A stretch of DNA of 64,000 bases from an uncultured Pelagibacteraceae bacterium (GTDB lineage: Bacteria > Pseudomonadota > Alphaproteobacteria > Pelagibacterales > Pelagibacteraceae): the NCBI GenBank assembly GCA_902609915.1, contig CACLTO010000002.1, forward strand, positions 1-64,000. The letters are read 5' to 3'. A program made the position numbers and the translations under genes. Within the stretch, counting starts at the first letter, position 1; every line of letters begins with the position of its first letter. The notes beneath the pieces are model-generated. The model had not been told where the DNA came from. It saw only the letters and a list, made by a program, of their open reading frames with translations, and did no database searches. Of the stretch, positions 3,875 to 32,694 are shown piece by piece.

Positions 3875-4928
3875 TAATAGTGTCCAGTATTTTTTGGTTT
3901 ATATCATTCCATGAGTTTTGGAAATTATGTTTTTCTAAATTATTTTTTTTTACATTGTACTCAAACTTATTCATAATTAAGTGATCTAAAAACTTTTCTA
4001 AATTAATGACATTAAAGTCTTTTTGACTCATAATCCAACAACAACCTAAATTTTTATAAAAATTTGCATTTTCAAATTGATGATTATCTTTTGCTGAAAC
4101 TAAAGGGACAGTTAAAAATGGTTTATTCATCATTGATAATTCTGCTAAAGTAGATGCACCAGCGCGAGTAATACACAGGTCAGATTGATTAATAAAATCT
4201 GCTAAATTTTCCTCAAAATCAAAAATGATATTTTCAACTTCAGCCTCATCATAAATATTCTTTAAGTTATCAATATTACTTTTATTAGTTTGTTGAATAA
4301 TTTTAATTTCATTTTTTTTTGAATAATTTATAATTACATCTTTTACTATGTCATCAAATATCTTTGCTCCTTGACTGCCGCCTACAACTAAAAGGCAGAA
4401 TACTTTATTTTCTGTTTTAACCTCTCTTTTCTCATATAAATTTTTTTTAACTAATGGAGATATTATTTGAATTTTATTTTTAAGTTTTTCAGGAAAGTTT
4501 TTTAAGTTTCTTGTATAAGAAAAAATTTTGTTACAAAATCGCAAAAAGAGTTTATTTGTTCTGCCTAAAACAATATTGGGTTCAAGTAAATATATTTTGA
4601 CTCCTAAAAATTTTGCTCCCAAACAAACAGGTAATGACATGTATCCCCCTGTTGAGAAAACAATACTAATTTTGTTTTTTTTCATTAATAATACTGCTTT
4701 AATCGCCAAGTAAATTACTTGAAATATTTTAAAGATAAAAAATATATTAAAGTTTAATTTGGGTGTATTTATCAAAACAACATCATTTTTTTTATCATCT
4801 AGATATTTCAACCCCCTTAAATCAGTAGAAATAAAAACATTAAAATTTGACTGCAAATGTTCACATAGAATTTTTGCTGGCACCACATGACCTCCTGATC
4901 CCCCCGTCGAAATTAATATATTTTTCAT
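3864..4928 (-). CDS. murG: UDP-GlcNAc--lipid I N-acetylglucosaminyltransferase MurG
   Basis: N-terminal STGGSGGHVVPA; GGSQGAKIFD; RAGASTLAEL. Confidence 0.96.
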   Translation of the reverse strand: MKNILISTGGSGGHVVPAKILCEHLQSNFNVFISTDLRGLKYLDDKKNDVVLINTPKLNFNIFFIFKIFQVIYLAIKAVLLMKKNKISIVFSTGGYMSLPVCLGAKFLGVKIYLLEPNIVLGRTNKLFLRFCNKIFSYTRNLKNFPEKLKNKIQIISPLVKKNLYEKREVKTENKVFCLLVVGGSQGAKIFDDIVKDVIINYSKKNEIKIIQQTNKSNIDNLKNIYDEAEVENIIFDFEENLADFINQSDLCITRAGASTLAELSMMNKPFLTVPLVSAKDNHQFENANFYKNLGCCWIMSQKDFNVINLEKFLDHLIMNKFEYNVKKNNLEKHNFQNSWNDINQKILDTINEN

Positions 4929-6052
4929 TCAATTATTTTTCTTTTCGTTAAATTTAAAATTATTCCAGATATAATAGAAATACTTATAATTGATGATCCT
5001 CCATAACTTAAAAATGGTAAGGTCATTCCAGTAGTTGGGAATAATCTGATATTTACTCCTATATGAATCATTGCTTGCATAAGTATTAAACTAATAGAGC
5101 CAGTTAGTATTAGTTTGATCTTTTTATCATTTTGCTTGTAAACCTTTTTCAAAACCGAAAATATTAATACTAGATAAGTTAATAAAATTAGCATTATGAA
5201 GATTACTCCAAACTCTTCTGAAATAACTGAAATAATGTAGTCAGTATGAGCTTCAGGGACTCTGTTTTTTAATGTTCCCTCTCCAATACCTTTTCCAAAA
5301 AAACCTCCACTTATTATAGCTTCTAATGCTTTATCTGATTGAAAGTTATGAGTGCCCATTTCAGGATTAAAAAAAGAAAATAATCTATCTTTTATATATT
5401 TAAATTGTGGCAGGTAGCTAATGACAGACATTAAAACGATTAAAGAAATAAAAAAGACTATACTCAAAAAAAATATGCTAATTCCAGAAATAAAAATCAA
5501 AACTAACCAACTAAAACCGATTAAAAGAGTTTGACCAATATCTGGTTGAAGTATCAAAAGACACGATATCAATATAGTTAATAAAAAAGATAAGAAGTAT
5601 TTCAAATTAAAATTACTATATTTTTGAGAACAAATTATCATACTTATTATTACTATTAAAAAAGGCTTTACAAACTCAATAGGCTGTATTCTTGGCAATA
5701 CCAACAAATCAATCCATCTCTTTGAACCTTTAATCTCCACTCCGATTATAGGAACAAGGAATAACAAAACTAATGATAAGCAGAAAAATATTACAGAAAT
5801 TCTATAAATTTCTTTCTCAGGTATAAAAGAAAGGAAAAAAATTAAAAAGAAGCCGAAAAAAACAAAAACTGTATGTTTAAAAAAAAAAAAATATGTATTC
5901 GTATCTAATTTATCTGATGCAATTAGAGAAGTTGATACAAGTGAGAAAAATAAACCCACCAAAAATAAAATTAAGATCAATGATAAAATAGGTTTATCAA
6001 TACTTTTCCACCATTGATAAAAGGAGATATAACTAAATAATTTTTCTTTCAT
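4925..6052 (-). CDS. ftsW: Lipid II glycosyltransferase FtsW (SEDS family)
   Basis: Multi-TM SEDS protein; GSKRWIDL, PTTGMTLPFLSYGGSS. Confidence 0.93.
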   Translation of the reverse strand: MKEKLFSYISFYQWWKSIDKPILSLILILFLVGLFFSLVSTSLIASDKLDTNTYFFFFKHTVFVFFGFFLIFFLSFIPEKEIYRISVIFFCLSLVLLFLVPIIGVEIKGSKRWIDLLVLPRIQPIEFVKPFLIVIISMIICSQKYSNFNLKYFLSFLLTILISCLLILQPDIGQTLLIGFSWLVLIFISGISIFFLSIVFFISLIVLMSVISYLPQFKYIKDRLFSFFNPEMGTHNFQSDKALEAIISGGFFGKGIGEGTLKNRVPEAHTDYIISVISEEFGVIFIMLILLTYLVLIFSVLKKVYKQNDKKIKLILTGSISLILMQAMIHIGVNIRLFPTTGMTLPFLSYGGSSIISISIISGIILNLTKRKIIE

Positions 6053-18991: not shown

Positions 18992-19068
18992 TGGTGGGCC
19001 CGCCAGGACTCGAACCTGGGACCAATACATTATGAGTGTACTGCTCTAACCAACTGAGCTACAGGCCC
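18992..19068 (-). tRNA. tRNA with CAU anticodon (elongator Met, or Ile2 if lysidine-modified)
   Basis: Full cloverleaf GGGCCTGTAGCTCAGTTGGTTAGAGCAGTACACTCATAATGTATTGGTCCCAGGTTCGAGTCCTGGCGGGCCCACCA; CCA encoded. Confidence 0.95.
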
Positions 19069-19229: not shown

Positions 19230-22200
19230 TTAACTATTCTTTTTTTTAATTATTAGTTTCTTTTCATATTTTTTTTTATTTTCTTCTTTTTCAAGATCTA
19301 AATACTTAGACTCTAAGCTATACCAATCAAGATCGTCCGTATTAATATGATCCATTCTGTTCCAATTTTTTCGGTAATCACTATCTTCTTCATAATCCTC
19401 TATATATTCATCGTAAAATTTAGGATTATCATATTTCTCTTTTTTAAAGGCTACTCTTGCATTTCTAAATTCAGAAAAACTTAGTGAGTTCCACATTATT
19501 TCTAAAGTCTTGATCTCTTTAATATTAATTATTTGATCAAAATTTATTGATTTAAATGGGATATATGTTTCATTACCATACTGCTGTATACAAAGAGTCT
19601 TTAGTTTCTTTAGTTTACTAATTTTCTTAAAATCTAAAACTTGTTTATCGAGTTTATGAGAAAATTGTTTATCTTCAGATAAGTAATAGTCAAAATATTC
19701 CGATCTAATAGCAATACCAAAGGTTAGATTGAGTTCTTCTAATGATAAAAGTCTGTTTGTAATATTGTTTATTATATCTTGGATAATCGTTTGATTTTTA
19801 ATATCCACATTTATATTCAATGTTAGTTTTTTTATTTTATGATTTATAAAATTTATAAATTCACCACTTCCTTTATAACTAGATGAAATATTTCCATAAT
19901 GATCATCTTTAAAGGGTCGATCTCCCAAACTTAAATTAATATCTTCAATTTTTTTACAATTTTTAAAAAATGATAAGTCTTGATCACAAATTTCTTTTTG
20001 GGGCTCGTAAATACTTAAATGATCATCTTTATTAAAATGCATTACTGAGAGACTTATTGTTTTTAAATTTTCAACAGATCTTAATTTGCTTAGATCAGAA
20101 GCTAATATTGCTGGATAAATTCTTATTTCCTCTAACTTATTTAAATGATGAAGCTGTGAAAAATCTACATTCATATAAGACCAAGTATCGTTATAACTTA
20201 AATTAGTTGAATATCCTGTATAACCTAGAGTGTGTTTAAATAATCCTTTATTATAAAAATTATGCAAATTTCTAATTTCAATCTTTTGAAGATTGGGGCA
20301 GTTCTCAAATTTTGATAATGTTACCTTATCTAAAGATTTTCTATGATGATTTTGAAAAAAATTCATTTTTAGAATTTTTAACTTTGGAAAATGAGGTAAG
20401 TCTAAATTCTCACTTTGTAAACAATCACTTAATTTCAAATATTCTAAATTCTCTATCGGTATAAATTTATCAAATTCATCTAATTTTATATATTTTTCTT
20501 GCCATGGATTTACACCCTCAATCCAACAATGAGTAAGGTTTTTAATTTTTTCATCTTTAATTTCTATATTATCTACTATCTGAGTGAAATCTGTAGATTT
20601 TAAAAAGTCTTCTTTAGATAAATTACTATCTTTAAAATCATTTGATAAAACAAATTTTTCACTGATATTTGTTGCAACAGAAAATAACTTATCTTTTATT
20701 TTATTTATCCCCTCTTCATTATTATTAACTAACACTCCTACAATTTTTTTGGCATTCCAATCCTTTTCTGTATAAGTCATTTGATGAGAAACGTGATGCA
20801 AAGAAGCCCCAAAATAAATATATATCTTTTTAAAATTTATATTTGGAATTTTGCCTATTGCAGTTTTTTTGATTACTAAAATTAAACTATTTTTATCTGG
20901 TTTAAAATCAGTATCCGAAAATCCAATTATTCTAATTATCTCTTCATATACATATTTAAACAGGTGATTTAATTTAGACCATTTTTTATCATCATCATTG
21001 ATATATTTAGGATAATGACTTTTTAAATCATCTATCTGATCATTATTTATAAATGTTTGATCGGGAAAATAGTTAGATTTATTATAAAAAATATCATCTA
21101 CAACAACTACTTGGTTGACATTTTCATTTATAAATTTATCAGTCAATAAATCTAACTGTTTATCGCTTGCACCCAATATTGTGAGTTTTTCTTTTAAATT
21201 ATTAATCTTTATTGAATTATAAAGATAAATTAAATGAATTTTGAAACTGTCTGAACTGTCTTTGTCATCTAGTAACTTTTTAATTTCAGGATGATAAATG
21301 AATATTTGAGTATCTTTATTATTTAATCTGAGTTCATAAATAAATTTTACTAAAAAACTTATTTGATCTGCACTCCAATCTTCATCACCATCATATTTAT
21401 CATTTTTAGATAAATCAAAAATAATTGTTTCTAATTTATTTTGATTTTTAAATAGATGTTCCATTACATCCAATTTTTTTCCTCTATCAGCTCCAGAATT
21501 GCTAATATTTAAAAACCTAAAACATGATTTAAAAATGAAAGATGATGGATTTGATTTGATAACTTCTTCATAACTTTTATTTTTTTTGATGACATAAGGT
21601 TTGCCATATTTATAAGTATCTTTGTAATAATCAAATTCACTGATATTAAAAACATTTTTATCTATAACTATATTATTTTCTTTCAAGATATTTAAAAACT
21701 CATTATCTAATTGAAGACAAAGGTTTGTTCTAGTATCTTTGTAACCACAGAAAAAATTTACAGTTTTAAAGTCTAGATTTAATTTTGATGTATTATTAAC
21801 ATTATTTATAGTGAAATTAGTTTTTTGTTTTTCTAAAATTTCTACAAAGTGATCTAATCCGTTTGTATATAAATCGCTTATATTTCCATTATCAATGACT
21901 ATATTTTTCAATTTTTTAAATCGTTTGAAATCATCTAATTTTGTATTCCAATAAATTTCTTTGAATATTTTTTTGTTGTCTTCATCATCTTTAAGTATTC
22001 TTTGTTTATAGGTTTTATAATTTATTAATTTAATAACCTCTAGGTTTGGAAACACAGTATGGCTATTTGGGACATCAGTTATTGAATTATGTTTATTCTG
22101 GTAGCTTTTTTGCCAATATGTATTTATTTCAAAATCTGGTTCGTCCAGATTTGGAAATTCCAGACAGAATTCTTTTAAAGAGGAAAGTTTTGAATTTTTT

Positions 22201-22466
22201 TCAAATTTGTCATTTTTTGATTTATTAAAATAACAATAATGATTAAGTTTTAATTTATTTAATTTTTTAAGTGAAAAAATTGCATTATAAAATTTCTTAA
22301 AATCGATGAAGCTATCTTTAAGAATTAATGTTTCTAAATTTTTAAGTTTAGATAATTTAGACCAATCATCATCTAAATTTATTCCTTCCAATTCTAATAT
22401 TTTAAAATTATACTTAGTATTTAATAAATCTAAATTTGATATTTTATTTGTATCTTCAATATTCAT
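19230..22466 (-). CDS. Giant leucine-rich-repeat-like protein (1078 aa), unknown function
   Basis: Repeated LRR-like units (LSKLKNLETLILKDSFI, LPHFPKLKILKMNFF, CPNLQKIEIRNL, ISKLKKLKTLCIQQYG) either side of a non-LRR central region. Confidence 0.7.
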   Translation of the reverse strand: MNIEDTNKISNLDLLNTKYNFKILELEGINLDDDWSKLSKLKNLETLILKDSFIDFKKFYNAIFSLKKLNKLKLNHYCYFNKSKNDKFEKNSKLSSLKEFCLEFPNLDEPDFEINTYWQKSYQNKHNSITDVPNSHTVFPNLEVIKLINYKTYKQRILKDDEDNKKIFKEIYWNTKLDDFKRFKKLKNIVIDNGNISDLYTNGLDHFVEILEKQKTNFTINNVNNTSKLNLDFKTVNFFCGYKDTRTNLCLQLDNEFLNILKENNIVIDKNVFNISEFDYYKDTYKYGKPYVIKKNKSYEEVIKSNPSSFIFKSCFRFLNISNSGADRGKKLDVMEHLFKNQNKLETIIFDLSKNDKYDGDEDWSADQISFLVKFIYELRLNNKDTQIFIYHPEIKKLLDDKDSSDSFKIHLIYLYNSIKINNLKEKLTILGASDKQLDLLTDKFINENVNQVVVVDDIFYNKSNYFPDQTFINNDQIDDLKSHYPKYINDDDKKWSKLNHLFKYVYEEIIRIIGFSDTDFKPDKNSLILVIKKTAIGKIPNINFKKIYIYFGASLHHVSHQMTYTEKDWNAKKIVGVLVNNNEEGINKIKDKLFSVATNISEKFVLSNDFKDSNLSKEDFLKSTDFTQIVDNIEIKDEKIKNLTHCWIEGVNPWQEKYIKLDEFDKFIPIENLEYLKLSDCLQSENLDLPHFPKLKILKMNFFQNHHRKSLDKVTLSKFENCPNLQKIEIRNLHNFYNKGLFKHTLGYTGYSTNLSYNDTWSYMNVDFSQLHHLNKLEEIRIYPAILASDLSKLRSVENLKTISLSVMHFNKDDHLSIYEPQKEICDQDLSFFKNCKKIEDINLSLGDRPFKDDHYGNISSSYKGSGEFINFINHKIKKLTLNINVDIKNQTIIQDIINNITNRLLSLEELNLTFGIAIRSEYFDYYLSEDKQFSHKLDKQVLDFKKISKLKKLKTLCIQQYGNETYIPFKSINFDQIINIKEIKTLEIMWNSLSFSEFRNARVAFKKEKYDNPKFYDEYIEDYEEDSDYRKNWNRMDHINTDDLDWYSLESKYLDLEKEENKKKYEKKLIIKKKNS

Positions 22467-22520: not shown

Positions 22521-24068
22521 ATGAGTAAAATTATTGGTATAGACCTAGGAACTACTTATAGTGCGATTGCACAATTAGATGATTTAGGTACACCAGAGGT
22601 ATTAGCATCTACAGATAATAATAAAAAAATCACAGCAAGTTCTGTTTATATTAAAGATCAAAATATGATCGTTGGTGACAAGGCTCTTGATGCATTAGAA
22701 ACAACTCCAAAACAAGTTGTTACGGAGACTAAAAGGCAAATGGAAAATGATGTAGTTTATTCAGTTGATGAAGGAAAATGGGTAGATAGAGATGAAAAAA
22801 ATAAAGATTATTATTCTCCAGCTCAAATCTCTTCTTTCATATTATCAAAACTTAAAGGTTATGCATCTGATGTTAAGAAAGCAGTCATAACTGTTCCAGC
22901 ATTATTTGCTGAAAAAGCAAGAGTGGCTACATTAGATGCAGCAAAAATGGCTGGGATTGAAGTTATAAGTTTAATCAATGAGCCAACTGCTGCTGCTTGT
23001 TATTATGCAAGTCTGCCAAATGTAAAAAAAATTACAGGTAAAATTTTAGTATTTGATTTAGGGGGTGGAACATTTGATGTAACTGTTTGTGAAGTGCAAG
23101 GGGAAGAAGTTGAGGTAATAACTAGTAGAGGTGATAAATGGCTCGGCGGTAAAGACTTTGACAAAGAATTGATTAATTTAATTAATGAAAAATATAAAAA
23201 TCTAACTGGAAAAGAATTAGATATCGATAATAATTATTCTAAGTATATGGAAGTAGCTGAACAAGTAAAAAGGGTTTTGTCAGTTAGAGATAAACAAATA
23301 GAAACAGTTGATGGACCTGATGGTGCAAAAGAAATAGAAATTACAAAAGCAGAATTCGAACAATCAATACAAACACACATTGAAAAACTTAAAATGCTTA
23401 TGGAAGAAGCTCTTGATGGCAGTGGATTAAAAGCAGAAAATATCAGTCATACATTGCTAGTTGGTGGATCAACTAGAATTCCAATAATTACAAAAACCAT
23501 TGAACAGGTGATGAAAAAACCTCCATTGAAAGGTGTAAATGTTGATGAGGCTGTAGCTGCAGGGGCTGCAATTTATGCAGGTTTAAAATCAAAAAAAAAT
23601 TTAAATGAGGCACAAAAAAAAGCAATTTCAAACGTTAAACTTCAAGATGTTTGTAATTTTTATTTAGGAACATTAGTTCAAGAAGACGATCCTGTTTTGA
23701 ATAGATCAGTTACCAGTAATTTAATTTTGATAGATCGAGATACCGCTTTACCAGCAACGAAAAGTTCAAGGTTAGTAACACTCCATGATGATCAAGAGTC
23801 TATCTCGATAGATATTACTCAAAGTGAGGGAAGAGAAAGAAACAGAGAATTTGTAAATATTATTCACCAAGGTGAACTTAAATTCCCTGACAAAAAGCCT
23901 AAAGGTAGACCTATCGATGTAACTTACACTTATGACACTTCTGGTAAACTTCATTGTATTTTTGAGGACGAAGCAACTAAGGAAAAATACGAAGTATCAA
24001 TAAGACCAGAGTCTGCAGAAGATTTAAGAAAAAACTATGAAGCTATTGAGCACATAGTAATTGAATAA
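22521..24068 (+). CDS. Hsp70/DnaK-family chaperone lacking the C-terminal helical lid (515 aa)
   Basis: IGIDLGTTYSAIA, VFDLGGGTFDVTV, INEPTAAACYYA, LLVGGSTRIPI; ends after a beta-type substrate-binding region. Confidence 0.92.
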   Translation: MSKIIGIDLGTTYSAIAQLDDLGTPEVLASTDNNKKITASSVYIKDQNMIVGDKALDALETTPKQVVTETKRQMENDVVYSVDEGKWVDRDEKNKDYYSPAQISSFILSKLKGYASDVKKAVITVPALFAEKARVATLDAAKMAGIEVISLINEPTAAACYYASLPNVKKITGKILVFDLGGGTFDVTVCEVQGEEVEVITSRGDKWLGGKDFDKELINLINEKYKNLTGKELDIDNNYSKYMEVAEQVKRVLSVRDKQIETVDGPDGAKEIEITKAEFEQSIQTHIEKLKMLMEEALDGSGLKAENISHTLLVGGSTRIPIITKTIEQVMKKPPLKGVNVDEAVAAGAAIYAGLKSKKNLNEAQKKAISNVKLQDVCNFYLGTLVQEDDPVLNRSVTSNLILIDRDTALPATKSSRLVTLHDDQESISIDITQSEGRERNREFVNIIHQGELKFPDKKPKGRPIDVTYTYDTSGKLHCIFEDEATKEKYEVSIRPESAEDLRKNYEAIEHIVIE

Positions 24069-26715
24069 TTATTTTGTGATTAAAAAAAAAGATATTAAAA
24101 AAGATCCCCAAAGACTTAAACATTCAGTAAGGTTTGACATAGAATTTTTTTTAGATCCAAAGGAAAAAAAAGTCAAAAAATTATTAATAGTATTTGTTCA
24201 AAAAGGAGGAATTGCTGATAAAAAATTCTTAATTGGTGACGTAATTAAATCTGTTAATGGTGTTACGGTTACAAATAGAATTGAATTAGATAATGAGGTA
24301 AATAAAATAGATTGGGGGGATGAAGTTATTTTTGATGTAGAAAGAAAAAATAAAATACAGGAAGTAAAGATTAAAACATTATCTTTTGATAATTATAGAA
24401 AAAACCATACAGTTTGGGCAATAGATCTTAAAAAAGAAAAAAATCAAATGATTATTGATAGTTATGGTATTGAATACAATTACCATGATTATGTAGAAAA
24501 AGGAGACATATTATTAGAAATCAATTCTGTAGAAATAAACTCTCTTGATGATTTCAATAAAGAAAAATCAAAATATAAAGTTGGTGATACTATTGAGTTT
24601 AAAATAAAAAGAAAAAAAATTTCTCAGATAAAAAAATTTGAGATCAAATTAATAAATTTTAAAAAAGCAATAGAATTGAACAAAAAGTCATGTGATGACT
24701 ATTGGTTAAAAAAAGCAGGATCACTATTGTTTAAAGAGTGGGTGGATGCAGACTATGGTTACAACCATGAAGATTGGTGGGGAAGACGTGAGGAAATTTT
24801 AAAGTTAGAAACTATTGCAGAACGTTTTTCTGATTCAAGACATTCTTATAATTCTGACTATATAAAAGATTGGAAAAACAAAGATGCCAAACTACTTACA
24901 AGCTTATTAAAACCTGAATACAAAGATATCAATTTCAAACTTAATTTTTTTAGTTTGATTTTTAATTCAAAAATTATTTCAAAATTAAGAAGTCTGAATT
25001 TAAAAAAAGAGTGTTGCTATTCATATATTTTAACAGGAAAAGCTGTTGGCGGAGATTTGGATAAAGATGTACCTGCAAATATTAAAAATTTTGAAAAATT
25101 AATTTCTGTCAAAGATAAAAAAAAGGAAGTATTCGTTGATGAAATTTCAGAAACATCCTTAAACTTTTTTTTTAATGAAATGGTTGATAAAAAAAAAAAT
25201 ATTTTTATCAAATATGAATCAGATAAGAAGTTTTGGCAATTTTCAAATAAAAAAAAAGCAGAGCTTTCCACTAAACCTACTTTAGAAAATTTTAATAATA
25301 TTGGTTTTGAAAATATTGCAAATATTTTTGAACATTGGTTAATATCAAAGTATAGATTTAATAAAGCTCAATCTAAGTTAGCAGTGGACGATTTCTGTAA
25401 AAGTTTTTTTTTAGAATACCCAGATTTTAATATTGAGAGAATAAAGGAGATTGAAAAAATGGATCTTCAAGTTGAGCCAGAATATGATGAAGATGATTAT
25501 GATTCCGATTACCAAGATAAAATTTATGTGTCAACAAGTGTCACTAAAAAGAAAGTTGCTGGAAAAGAGTCATTTGTGGTTAAATTGAATAATTTACCTA
25601 CTGATGAAGAAATAGAAAATCATACTGTTGGAGGAAAAAAAATATATCTAAAAATTTATGTTTATGATGTAACAGATTTAGATGAAGATAAATACTTCAA
25701 GATTCAAGACAATGGTGAAGATACAGGTCAATATTTTCTTAACAATTGTCATGTAGTTAAAACAGAAGATTTATCATGGTCTGAAGGTAACGGAATTTTA
25801 GTTCAAACTACAGAATTGGAAACTTATGGAATGACACAACTATCTGAATTGGCTTTTCCATACTCAAAATTACAATTACCAAAATATGGAAAAAGAAAAC
25901 TATCTTTTAGAACTTTTATTTGCAACGAAAATCAAAAATTTGATGAAAACAACGGAAGATTTATTAGTTACGATAATCCATCTTTTAGAGCAGAAGAATA
26001 TTTTTTAGAAAGTTATTCAGAAGGATTTGATGAATATAATGATTATCCAGATATTTTATCCTATTCATCTTCTGAAATAGAAGTTGAGTACAAACAGCCA
26101 GGATATTTAGAAATTAATAGACGTAAATATAATGATCTAAAAATTGCTTTAAGCTTAGCTTTAAACCAGGATGATAAAAATAATCAGAAAGCTAATTTAG
26201 AAAAAATTAAAGACTCAGTGAGATATGGCGATTTTACTGTTGAGGGAAATATCTATAAAATACTTAGTTTGAAAAAAAATTATGAAAAATCTTTAAATGA
26301 AAAATTAAATTTAGATAATATTTTAAAAGATTTAAAGAAAAATTCTGTAATACACGAAAGATATGAAATAATAGATTTTTTACTTAACCTAGCTACACAA
26401 GATGAAACTTTTAATAGTAAAGAAAATAAATTCATAGACAAGGTTTCAAAAGAACTAGAATTAAATAAAGAGAAATATCAAGAAATTAAAAAACAAAAAA
26501 CTTCATCTGTAAAATTTGTAGATTTTGGCGATGAGGTAGAAGAAAGTGTATTTGGGATTAATAAAGATATGACTAAAGATGAGAAGCTTAAAATTTTAAG
26601 AAAAGAATATAGTAGATGGAATGCTCTAACAAATAATACTGACAAAATGATCAGAGAAAGAGCTAAAGAAATGAGAGATTTAGCGGCAAATTTAAGATCT
26701 CAATATAATAAATAA
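24061..26715 (+). CDS. Hsp70-partner candidate: two PDZ-like domains plus TerB-like/helical C-terminus (884 aa)
   Basis: TTG start overlapping the hsp70 stop; PDZ-like GGIADKKFLIGDVIKSVNGVTV and YVEKGDILLEINSVEI; C-terminal acidic helical region (DFLLNLATQDETFNSKENKFIDKVSKELEL) and FGINKDMTKDEKLKILRKEYSRWNALT. Confidence 0.65.
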   Translation: MNNYFVIKKKDIKKDPQRLKHSVRFDIEFFLDPKEKKVKKLLIVFVQKGGIADKKFLIGDVIKSVNGVTVTNRIELDNEVNKIDWGDEVIFDVERKNKIQEVKIKTLSFDNYRKNHTVWAIDLKKEKNQMIIDSYGIEYNYHDYVEKGDILLEINSVEINSLDDFNKEKSKYKVGDTIEFKIKRKKISQIKKFEIKLINFKKAIELNKKSCDDYWLKKAGSLLFKEWVDADYGYNHEDWWGRREEILKLETIAERFSDSRHSYNSDYIKDWKNKDAKLLTSLLKPEYKDINFKLNFFSLIFNSKIISKLRSLNLKKECCYSYILTGKAVGGDLDKDVPANIKNFEKLISVKDKKKEVFVDEISETSLNFFFNEMVDKKKNIFIKYESDKKFWQFSNKKKAELSTKPTLENFNNIGFENIANIFEHWLISKYRFNKAQSKLAVDDFCKSFFLEYPDFNIERIKEIEKMDLQVEPEYDEDDYDSDYQDKIYVSTSVTKKKVAGKESFVVKLNNLPTDEEIENHTVGGKKIYLKIYVYDVTDLDEDKYFKIQDNGEDTGQYFLNNCHVVKTEDLSWSEGNGILVQTTELETYGMTQLSELAFPYSKLQLPKYGKRKLSFRTFICNENQKFDENNGRFISYDNPSFRAEEYFLESYSEGFDEYNDYPDILSYSSSEIEVEYKQPGYLEINRRKYNDLKIALSLALNQDDKNNQKANLEKIKDSVRYGDFTVEGNIYKILSLKKNYEKSLNEKLNLDNILKDLKKNSVIHERYEIIDFLLNLATQDETFNSKENKFIDKVSKELELNKEKYQEIKKQKTSSVKFVDFGDEVEESVFGINKDMTKDEKLKILRKEYSRWNALTNNTDKMIRERAKEMRDLAANLRSQYNK

Positions 26716-26719
26716 TTTA

Positions 26720-27850
26720 CTATAATTTTATCGTTTCAATTAATTTTTTTAAAATAGAACTTGCATCCTTATTATGATTATCAGACTCAGCAAATATTTC
26801 TTTTAAAGTAGATATTATTTTTTGTTTATCAGATTTCATTAAAATTTTAGCTTCATTAAAGGCATTTTCTATTCTTTTTTCTACTACAGACATCTTTGAT
26901 ATATTCAAAAGACTTTTTATACTTACTGCTGCTTTTTCTCCAAATCTCTTTTTGAATTTTTCTTGTTCGTCTTTAGAAAACTTTTTATCTGCAAGATAGA
27001 TACTTAATGAGCCCCATAATAAAGCTTTATTAATTATTTCTTTATTAGAGTTATCTAATTCATTTCCAGTTACTTTTTTTATACTTTCATTAATCTTTCT
27101 ATCAACCACTTTTAAATCATAGATACCTTTTTTGTCTGTTTTGAAAAATTCGTTATATTCATGGCTCATTGAGAACCATATTAAAGCCTGCATTCGATTA
27201 AGAAATGTTGGATGAGTTGCATAAAGTAAATTTTTATTTCCTTGTAACTCTTTTAACTCTCTCAATTGATCTAAGTAAGAACTAAAATTAAAAGATATGT
27301 GTTCATCACTAAGACCTGTGGAAATTTTCAGCATTGCTCTTAAAGAATTTTCAATACTTCCTGAGCCTAATAAACCAGCACGATCAGCTGATATTTCTGC
27401 AGCCCTACTTAAATTAAGAAAATTAAGATATTCAGTTCTGGTTCTTGCTTTTTCAATAGGTGGATAAAGGCTATGTTGATAATAAAAATGAGAAATCTCA
27501 TGGGCAATAACGCTCTCTAATTCACCTGAATTTAGTAATTCAACCATTTTCGAGGTAATAATTATTTCTGCATTCAAACTTTGAGGCATCATTGCACAAG
27601 CTGCTTGGGTTTGAATGTGATTTGCAGTGATAAAAAAATTAAAGTTATTTTTAACACCAAGTCTTTTAAAAACATTGTCGATGGAACTGGCAATTTTTGG
27701 AAATAAGTTTTCACTTACTTTAACTGAACTTGATAACAAATTTCTCAAGTTTTCATTATTAAAATTTTTGGTCTCGTTTTTGTTATTTTGAACAATTCCT
27801 AATTCATTCAAATCATCATAGGTATATCTAAATCTATCTAAAAAATTCAT
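26720..27850 (-). CDS. M48-like zinc metallopeptidase with TerB-like C-terminus
   Basis: HEISH motif in SVIAHEISHFYYQH, downstream EISADRAGLL; C-terminal YLADKKFSKDEQEKFKKRFG. Confidence 0.8.
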   Translation of the reverse strand: MNFLDRFRYTYDDLNELGIVQNNKNETKNFNNENLRNLLSSSVKVSENLFPKIASSIDNVFKRLGVKNNFNFFITANHIQTQAACAMMPQSLNAEIIITSKMVELLNSGELESVIAHEISHFYYQHSLYPPIEKARTRTEYLNFLNLSRAAEISADRAGLLGSGSIENSLRAMLKISTGLSDEHISFNFSSYLDQLRELKELQGNKNLLYATHPTFLNRMQALIWFSMSHEYNEFFKTDKKGIYDLKVVDRKINESIKKVTGNELDNSNKEIINKALLWGSLSIYLADKKFSKDEQEKFKKRFGEKAAVSIKSLLNISKMSVVEKRIENAFNEAKILMKSDKQKIISTLKEIFAESDNHNKDASSILKKLIETIKL

Positions 27851-28649: not shown

Positions 28650-29738
28650 TTATTTTTTATTTATTTTCCATTTCATTATAAATGCCTCGACTCCAATCTT
28701 TTTAATTTCTTCATACAATTCTTCTAAATTATTTTCACTTGTTTCATTTAATTCAATTACATCTTCAATATTCTTTTTAGTTAGTTCTAGTTTCTTTCTT
28801 TTTTTTTCAGCAATATTTATTTGTTGCATAAGTATATTTGTAACCTCAGGACTTTCGATGAATTTGATAGCTGATAATACGTTATCTTTACTGCCTTCAT
28901 TTTGTTTATTTTTTTCAGCTAAATACCATCTTTGTGTAGTAGCAAGAGCTCTTAGAGCAGTAAAATCATATTTACATATAAATATACTACCTTTATGAGC
29001 ATAAGGCACATCTTTTGGAAAATCTTTGGGTGTTGTTCGGGTAAATATAATGCCAACATCAGATTTTGAGTCTTTCATGTCGTTTTGAAGTTTTATAATC
29101 CAATCATTACTCCAAGCCTTAGTATTTTTTCTCTCATAAAGTATTTTTGCAACGACCATATCATCTTCTTTAATTTCTTGTAACCAGTCACCACCAGCTA
29201 CACCTTTGGCATATTCAGCAATTTTATCATTTTTATCATTGAATATTTTTTTTAAAAAATCACCTAATTGCATTTCTGAGGATGAGCCTTGATCAACAGT
29301 AGTGCCCTGTGTCATTTTTTTTCGAAGATCTTCAACTGTTGCAATGTATCTCTGCTCTTTTAGTTGCCACAGTTTTTTTTCCTCGTCTTTTTGTTCTTTT
29401 AAATTTTCTTTTTGTTCTTTAAGTTTAGTCTCATAAAGAGTTTCATAATGCTCTTTATTTTCTTTATCTAAATTTTTAACTTTTGTATCAACAGCCTCTT
29501 TTACAGCTTTTTTAATATCATTTTCTTTTTGTTCGTTAATTGATTTAATTTGGTTTTCCTTTTCTTTATTTGAATCTTCTAAATCTTTTAATTTCTTTAA
29601 ATTTTCTTTTAATTTTTGACCTTCTTCTTTTTTAATTCTATCTCTTGTATTTGTCTCTATTTCTCTTAAATGTGAAGACAAACCATCTTCCATCGGAAAC
29701 TCTTTTTTACAATGTGGACATTTTATTGTTTGGCTCAT
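28650..29738 (-). CDS. DUF2130-like protein: zinc-finger plus coiled coil plus nuclease-like C-terminus
   Basis: N-terminal CPHCKKEF; coiled coil; SSSEMQLGDFLKKIF...GGDWLQEI...ILYERKNTKAWSNDWIIKLQ. Confidence 0.8.
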   Translation of the reverse strand: MSQTIKCPHCKKEFPMEDGLSSHLREIETNTRDRIKKEEGQKLKENLKKLKDLEDSNKEKENQIKSINEQKENDIKKAVKEAVDTKVKNLDKENKEHYETLYETKLKEQKENLKEQKDEEKKLWQLKEQRYIATVEDLRKKMTQGTTVDQGSSSEMQLGDFLKKIFNDKNDKIAEYAKGVAGGDWLQEIKEDDMVVAKILYERKNTKAWSNDWIIKLQNDMKDSKSDVGIIFTRTTPKDFPKDVPYAHKGSIFICKYDFTALRALATTQRWYLAEKNKQNEGSKDNVLSAIKFIESPEVTNILMQQINIAEKKRKKLELTKKNIEDVIELNETSENNLEELYEEIKKIGVEAFIMKWKINKK

Positions 29739-30452
29739 TTAATTTTCTTTATTTTTTTTTTCATTATACCATCTACAATTATCACAATCATCACCCGAAT
29801 TTGGCATTTTTTCAGATTCTAAACAATTCTTTAAATCAACCAAACTATCTTCAATATAATCTGTTTTTAATTTATAAGATAATAGTGTTGTTTTAAAATT
29901 GACTTTTTTATTAAATGTTTTTTGACTTTCATCTTGAGCATTGCAAATCAACCAATAACCAGTGTCGTGAACTTTAAAGTCATTAAGTTTTAAAAGATAA
30001 GCGTAAAAATCAAGCTGTCTTAGATAGGACTTGTGATAATGTTTATCAGATGAAGTATATTCTTCTAATTTTTTATTAGATGTTGCTTTATAATCCAAAA
30101 CAACAATTTCATCGGTATCTTTGTTTAACCATAAGTCGTCTAAAGCTCCAAAGATTTCTATATCAGTTTTTTTTGACCTAGCCCTAACACCAACTCTATT
30201 AAACCTGTATTTTTTTAAAGTCTCTGGATCAAGACCATTGTAGGGAATAAAATTTAATTCATATTCTTTAAATATTGGATGGGGTTCACCTTTTGCTCGT
30301 AATTCATCAAATTCCTCTTTTAATAAAGCGTCTACTCTAGAATTAATTGGATGACCTGGAGTACCCGGAGGTTTGATTTGATGCTTTTCTAAAAGATAAA
30401 AACACAAAGGACATTTTATAAAGCTATCCCACTTAGATCTACTTATTGCCAT
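29739..30452 (-). CDS. PD-(D/E)XK nuclease, RecB/Cas4-like
   Basis: SRSKWDSFIKCPLCFYL, IFGALDDLWL...IVVLDYKATS, SYLRQLDFYAYLL, C-terminal CDNC. Confidence 0.82.
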   Translation of the reverse strand: MAISRSKWDSFIKCPLCFYLLEKHQIKPPGTPGHPINSRVDALLKEEFDELRAKGEPHPIFKEYELNFIPYNGLDPETLKKYRFNRVGVRARSKKTDIEIFGALDDLWLNKDTDEIVVLDYKATSNKKLEEYTSSDKHYHKSYLRQLDFYAYLLKLNDFKVHDTGYWLICNAQDESQKTFNKKVNFKTTLLSYKLKTDYIEDSLVDLKNCLESEKMPNSGDDCDNCRWYNEKKNKEN

Positions 30453-32619: not shown

Positions 32620-32694
32620 TGGTGGGCCGTGTTGGTTACGCTCCAACTACCCCTGCAATGTCAATGCAGTACTCTACTATTGAGCTAACGGCCC
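32620..32694 (-). tRNA. tRNA-Val (GAC), atypical D- and T-loops
   Basis: GGGCCGTTAGCTCAATAGTAGAGTACTGCATTGACATTGCAGGGGTAGTTGGAGCGTAACCAACACGGCCCACCA; all four stems pair. Confidence 0.8.

Follow-up and report, generated by a model that had tools for sequence, protein, structure and literature searches.

The 64,000-nucleotide stretch of Pelagibacteraceae DNA analysed here (the window) carries adjoining genes for an Hsp70 without its lid, a large partner protein with a TerB domain and a J-like tail, and a zinc peptidase of family M48. This module is best read, with a probability of about 0.55, as a dedicated mobile Hsp70 cycle that would deliver recognised proteins to the peptidase. The basis for this reading is the occurrence of the core genes together (29 loci), the grouping of their Hsp70s in one clade, the GrpE fold of a fourth protein, the retained ATPase residues, the loss of both Hsp70 Arg167 and the partner's HPD motif, a conserved Hsp70 tail, the HExxH motif of the peptidase, low ratios of nonsynonymous to synonymous change (dN/dS), and the exchange of a pair of PDZ domains in the partner. 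The original prediction, made from the letters of the window, had proposed a chaperone system that has no name in databases, located on a mobile island and made of the Hsp70 and its partner. That proposal is supported, and the pair is real, but it is incomplete: the M48 gene at 26720-27850 (-) had been overlooked, and most loci also encode a GrpE-fold factor.

The core components in the window are as follows (+, forward strand; -, reverse strand).

22521..24068, +: lid-less Hsp70, 515 residues, with nucleotide-binding domain (NBD), linker and the beta part of the substrate-binding domain (SBD-beta); Pfam HSP70
24045..24065, +: conserved Hsp70 C-terminal tail, in the window IEHIVIE-COOH; from column entropies
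24076..26715, + (24061 with the mechanical TTG start): partner, PDZ-PDZ-unknown-beta-TerB-J-like; from homologue starts
24178..24618, +: two PDZ domains, residues ~40-186, an exchangeable cassette; Pfam PDZ_2
26269..26490, +: TerB domain, Pfam core; the full domain is probably ~26140-26510
26542..26712, +: J-like three-helix tail; from AlphaFold2 (AF2) helices and a profile match
26617-26622, +: W-N, in place of yHPD, within the J-like tail
26720..27850, -: soluble M48 zinc peptidase, 376 residues, third core gene, convergent; Pfam Peptidase_M48

The core gene set and its distribution

In the window, the M48 gene ends 4 bp beyond the partner stop, on the opposite strand. As for the start of the partner, its homologues at loci L110 and L048 begin at the equivalent of GTG 24076, ~7 bp past the Hsp70 stop, and since these close homologues begin there, this codon is likelier than TTG 24061. 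The predicted overlap of the two genes therefore exists with the mechanical TTG start only and vanishes with the favoured GTG. No grpE or dnaJ was found in the island, as had been noted; the canonical dnaK, grpE and dnaJ of the host lie on another contig, and the housekeeping copy is the only GrpE in this 70%-complete genome.

Loci were gathered from searches of relatives, of the class and of the genus, together with one scan of 85,488 species genomes. Duplicates between collections were removed, and class-search matches with E > 1e-7 and HtrA-type PDZ matches were left out of the membership. This gave 29 distinct partner-bearing loci. According to the gene maps, both the Hsp70 and the M48 gene adjoin the partner at every locus whose contig reaches far enough, so that the conservation of the Hsp70-partner pair elsewhere holds wherever the contig continues. 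At all but one of these loci the Hsp70 has its whole length, although at L043/L061 its reading frame is split in two. At L047 (11062-11757, -; genome G278) the Hsp70 is a 231-residue piece comprising part of the NBD, the SBD-beta and the conserved tail, with partner and M48 intact; this genome, 97% complete, yielded no GrpE, and a groEL-like open reading frame (ORF), identified by eye, lies near the locus.

The hosts are mostly marine and non-phage. Most are Alphaproteobacteria and some are Gammaproteobacteria (Parahaliea maris, Alcanivorax sp. DP30, AqS3); two contigs of metagenome-assembled genomes (MAGs) labelled Marinimicrobia and Flavobacteriales also carry the module, and these labels are possibly wrong. 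The module occurs in 12/399 genus genomes and in ~7/395 class genomes, and in none of the 398 other genomes of a phylum sample. Searches of phage, plasmid and viral collections were empty, and carriage by such elements was rejected for this reason. At L068 (1-1441, -), three or four small ORFs in tandem, secreted or lipoprotein-like, share a near-identical signal peptide (MKKLLLILICLFV).

A fourth gene, for a GrpE-fold protein, stands upstream of the Hsp70 in 19 loci and is absent from seven, including the window. At L059 the GrpE-like and Hsp70 genes are transcribed divergently from those for the partner and M48, which means that the four genes are not always a single operon; the ORF at 4027-5862 (+) of this locus begins ~200 residues ahead of the usual start.

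The cytosolic part of the GrpE-like protein was modelled from 13 relatives, with a mean predicted local distance difference test score (pLDDT) of 77. When this model was compared with the PDB by Foldseek, the top 7 matches were all GrpE or GrpEL1 (probability 0.99-1.0, best E 9.9e-05), and the next match had an E of 0.46; the template modelling (TM) scores are low (<=0.51) since the long helix bends in another way. Sequence comparison gave fainter signals: Pfam GrpE matches the L048 protein at 2.3e-05, just below the cut-off, and of the profile searches hhalign gave a weak match (probability 53%, E 1.3e-4) and the one against the PDB coiled coils only. The identity is thus settled by fold comparison and not by sequence alone. 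One or two predicted membrane helices precede the GrpE part. The complete module thus has its own exchange factor, probably at the inner membrane face.

The window peptidase matches Pfam Peptidase_M48 at 5e-14 (53 bits vs a cut-off of 20.3). HExxH is present in 26/26 M48 proteins of the module and E..[AS]DR in 21 of these 26. With the HtpX family the window protein scores 31 bits, against a cut-off of 285, and it has no membrane segment. A second TerB-like domain at its C-terminus was considered and rejected (hhalign E 0.017, probability 2.7%). In the module subtype without PDZ domains, a family of ~200-230 residues (MG[IL]FDIFK...) lacking a significant Pfam match stands directly downstream of M48, with members at L049 11878-13246, L112 6662-7360, L113 5872-6468 and L114 8223-9555.

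The Hsp70 and its J-like partner

Pfam HSP70 covers residues 4-499 of the window Hsp70 (E = 4.1e-89) and stops at profile position 501/599. The protein aligns to DnaK through the SBD-beta (residues 1-499) and ends ~15 residues later, and the alpha-helical lid is absent from it and from all members of the family (474-521 residues). D8, T11, T12, K70, E171, D194, G196-198, T199 and D201 (E. coli numbering) are kept in 19/19 aligned members. The Pfam match, the ATPase residues and the DnaK alignment bear out the claim that the NBD is intact and that the protein ends after a beta SBD. It is nevertheless not a DnaK by the NCBIfam equivalog (302 bits vs cut-offs of 648 and 823), and the module Hsp70s form one clade, with 100/100 support, apart from DnaK. 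In this tree the Marinimicrobia-labelled member and Parahaliea nest within Alphaproteobacteria, in keeping with transfer or with mislabelled MAG contigs. Among the housekeeping genes, the dnaK of G071 (C13:12094-13879) has an in-frame TGA and gives two overlapping matches, probably through a sequencing or assembly error.

According to textbooks, J-protein control of Hsp70 requires both the HPD motif of J proteins and the Hsp70 arginine that it meets. In DnaK, Arg167 contacts the HPD aspartate (PMC7289447). Position 167 is S in the window Hsp70 and Y, N, S, E, F or Q in 26/26 members, against R in 8/8 host-genome DnaKs. On the partner side, HPD was found in 0/28 distinct partners, and 27 of the 28 have W[NS] at the place of yHPD. 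Because the arginine is absent from all 26 Hsp70s and HPD from all 28 partners, the loss of the motif and that of its Hsp70 contact go together. A wider remodelling of the J-docking surface (D481N, absent acidic hairpin 209-211) was rejected, given that DnaKs of the same hosts share both; the loss of R167 alone held. The linker is also altered, from VLLLD in DnaK to I/V-x-V/L-x-E/D.

After a variable stretch, the family ends in a C-terminal tail of the form I-[DE]-K-F-x-V-[ED]. Over 17 distinct tails, entropies are ~1-1.6 bits at -7, -6, -5, -4, -2 and -1, compared with 2.2-3.3 at -8 to -20. This tail is probably a docking peptide for one of the core partners of the Hsp70, and since it predates the PDZ domains, its docking site probably lies in such a core partner.

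The two PDZ-like domains predicted for the partner are confirmed by Pfam PDZ_2 (8.8e-16, two stretches), and NCBIfam HtrA-type profiles match residues 39-108 and 120-186. They are a feature of the version described here; for the system as a whole, they are a lineage-specific addition outside the module core. Partners without PDZ domains nearly always have an N-terminal predicted membrane segment, and no core protein of the window, L109 and L110 versions has one. The large middle without an assignment is real (residues ~200-480). TerB is matched by Pfam at residues 737-810 (8.3e-06, and as low as 2e-13 in relatives) and by fold (Foldseek, 2h5n, probability 0.96, TM(target) 0.66, but E = 0.41). 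The segment FGINKDMTKDEKLKILRKEYSRWN, quoted originally as TerB-like, does exist but lies after TerB, in helix I/II of the J-like tail formed by the last 57 residues (~828-884).

Is this tail a J domain? In an AF2 model of the last 415 residues, the helices at 355-361, 370-387 and 393-414 (model numbering, pLDDT ~80-89) are short, 18 residues and 22 residues long, which is the J-domain order. A profile of 15 tails aligns in register with the HPD-bearing J domains of the host genomes (score 21.8, E 5e-4; reversed control 14.2, E 0.025). A J fold of the tail is probable from this model and alignment. The likeness of the partner to PDZ and TerB is thus upheld by Pfam for the first and by Pfam and fold for the second, and that to a J-like fold is made probable by the profile and predicted helix order.

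Mobility of the island and exchange of the PDZ pair

The borders of the island and a further component are these.

18992..19068, -: tRNA-Met, left border of the island
19230..22466, -: large protein resembling leucine-rich-repeat (LRR) proteins, lineage-specific fifth component, next to the module at 8 loci of the genus
32620..32694, -: tRNA-Val, right border of the island

The two tRNA genes are 50-75 bp apart in 7/10 relatives and 13.55 kb apart in the window, the gap being filled by the module and other genes. Genome G995 (locus L110) carries the module beside the same tRNA-Met. Between it and the window, synonymous divergence (dS) is 0.35-0.59 in the module and 1.1-2.0 in the flanking genes (MlaC, MlaA and another); the far lower value in the module indicates that it spread after the host lineages had split. 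Among close copies, the Hsp70 and M48 have dN/dS of 0.03-0.05, that is, they are under purifying selection.

The partner has a more complex history. Between the window and L109 it is 98% identical over the last 240 residues and 53% over the PDZ segment, whose synonymous sites are close to saturated. PDZ type A joins the window and L110 (79%), and type B joins L109 and L116 (81%), whereas the backbones group in the opposite way, L116 with L110 (92-99%) and the window with L109 (85-87%). Given this opposite grouping, the PDZ pair is a cassette that has been exchanged by recombination, and not a case of mere fast change.

At L115 the LRR-like gene follows M48 directly, in the same orientation. 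Its LRR_14 matches are below the Pfam cut-off in both L115 (3.6e-4) and L110 (7.5e-4). Between the window and L048 (6128-9346, -) its dS is 0.48 and that of the neighbouring Hsp70 is 2.19, so the gene has seemingly been exchanged apart from the rest of the module. Elsewhere in the island, at 28650-30452 (-), a DUF2130 protein lies beside a PD-(D/E)XK nuclease-like protein that weakly resembles Cas4; these island genes have relatives that recur beside module copies in L049, L110, L112 and L113.

Much of this could also belong to a conflict or immune system, in which the variable PDZ region, together with the LRR protein, would detect either an invader or a host factor that has been damaged, and M48 would be freed by the Hsp70/J-like switch to cut a host or phage protein. 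The position of the island between tRNA genes that most relatives have side by side, the contrast in dS between module and flanks, the PDZ pair swapped on conserved backbones and the patchy occurrence in the genus all point in this direction, as do some neighbours: L044 lies next to recombinases and a DNA methylase, L065 next to a serine recombinase, L070 next to a GmrSD endonuclease and L063 next to a NERD protein. Moreover, published conflict systems join HSP70, GrpE and DnaJ (PMC7159879). However, no PADLOC 2.0 system matches the core proteins, a weak capP match of M48 being the only one (E 5e-4 to 4e-3), the collections of phages, plasmids and viruses, where defence genes often travel, contain no copy, and the flanking genes are not consistently defence genes. 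The conflict or stress function suggested in the original prediction has circumstantial support only; a defence role is plausible on these grounds, and this explanation as a whole is possible but doubtful. Its more specific form, a mobile defence or conflict system with a J-like switch based on W-N and with PDZ cassettes that pick non-self or misfolded proteins to be fed to M48, is unlikely.

Another explanation looks to the cell envelope. A tethered Hsp70-GrpE-M48 set could be an accessory to proteostasis under membrane stress, clearing damaged envelope proteins in the manner of HtpX/FtsH quality control, as a niche adaptation. The membrane segments of the GrpE-like proteins and of nearly all non-PDZ partners would fit this role, and so would the membership of M48 in the family of HtpX, the strong purifying selection and the mostly marine, non-phage hosts. 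The same role sits poorly with the window, L109 and L110 versions, whose core proteins have no predicted membrane segment, with a rare, patchy and recombining distribution, and with PDZ exchange, which is unexpected in housekeeping. It can be entertained only tentatively.

The proposed cycle and known systems

In the dedicated Hsp70 cycle favoured here, the partner would capture or sense targets. In the window lineage it would do so by way of the PDZ pair, which is exchangeable, and perhaps of the middle region, and elsewhere by way of other N-terminal parts. Its TerB/J-like C-terminus would then present them to the private Hsp70, whose ATP cycle would be reset by the GrpE-fold factor of the module or, in the window, presumably by the housekeeping GrpE. 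Because this Hsp70 has no lid, it would hold its client only briefly, and the unfolded chain would pass to the co-encoded M48 zinc peptidase and be cut. The contact between the J-like domain and the Hsp70 would have been rewired, HPD and the Hsp70 arginine being lost together and W-N gained, and for this reason the module should run apart from the housekeeping DnaK/DnaJ. Such a scheme supposes a physical complex, the hand-over of clients, their proteolysis and recognition by the PDZ domains.

Several points weigh against this cycle. The hhalign probability for the J-like tail, 32%, suggests modest homology. No J domain is among the Foldseek matches listed for the partner model (mean pLDDT 58), an absence which, with a model that is mediocre overall, is in itself neither evidence against nor for. 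GrpE is missing from the window and several relatives, M48 peptidases also act alone, and the PDZ domains would have to bind clients rather than the module's own parts.

The partner might also be a scaffold whose J-like tail is not a co-chaperone, with the Hsp70 as a nucleotide-regulated assembly or adaptor protein and not a folding or unfolding motor. The absence of HPD, Arg167 and lid and the altered linker would be in line with this, and there is a precedent in the CoCoNuT Hsp70-like domains, most of whose ATPase activity is believed to be lost (PMC11090510). Every checked ATPase residue is kept in the module, however, and an exchange factor with the GrpE fold would be meaningful only in a nucleotide cycle. 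A scaffold is improbable.

No description of the module was found in database families or in the freely readable literature; papers on the Ter systems may mention it. The nearest published arrangement is that of the GAP1-N2 GTPase-centric conflict systems of actinobacteria and firmicutes, with their HSP70-GrpE-DnaJ theme (Kaur et al. 2020, PMC7159879). Both are patchy accessory operons in which an HSP70 is encoded along with its GrpE and a DnaJ-type domain. The GAP1-N2 systems contain GTPases and FNIII proteins, their DnaJ domains are true ones and they have no peptidase, whereas the module has an HPD-less J-like domain, M48 and TerB, and mainly occurs in Alpha- and Gammaproteobacteria. Neither gene maps nor Pfam scans of the module neighbours show a GAP1-N2 GTPase or an FNIII protein. 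Type III CnuD of CoCoNuT likewise places an Hsp70 NBD and SBD in an accessory system, with degenerate ATPase motifs and ties to McrBC-like nucleases (PMC11090510); the ATPase residues of the module are intact, and its partner enzyme is a peptidase.

With DjlA (NCBIfam PRK09430), the partner has in common the order of a TerB and then a J-type domain within a single protein that is often anchored in the membrane, and there is a weak match (E 4.1e-05 to 5e-3). It differs in its score (16-23 vs a cut-off of 162 bits), in having no HPD, in its extra beta-rich and PDZ domains, and in being tied to a private Hsp70 and M48. Mitochondria have an HPD-less J-like protein in Pam16/Tim16, which pairs with the true J protein Pam18. 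The likeness, by description only, is that of an HPD-less J-like domain in an Hsp70 machine at a membrane; a true J partner such as Pam18 is not encoded in the module.

With DnaK/DnaJ/GrpE, the module shares the three roles of the nucleotide cycle, the Hsp70 ATPase residues and the GrpE fold, and it differs by having no lid, no Arg167 and no HPD, by its separate clade and by the attached peptidase. A whole clade that has lost HPD and the arginine, yet keeps W-N, the full set of ATPase residues and often a GrpE-fold factor, offers a natural test of HPD-free triggering of Hsp70.

Finally, HtpX and LoiP are also of the M48 family, with HExxH, but the module peptidase is far below both cut-offs, has no predicted transmembrane segment (a marginal one in L070) and is always linked to the Hsp70 and the partner. 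This operon-level link between an Hsp70 and a metallopeptidase comes with a conserved, EEVD-like Hsp70 tail and, in one lineage, with a recombining cassette that would serve recognition. If chosen proteins are indeed delivered to the peptidase, the module would degrade proteins at the expense of ATP by a route that does not belong to the AAA+ proteases.

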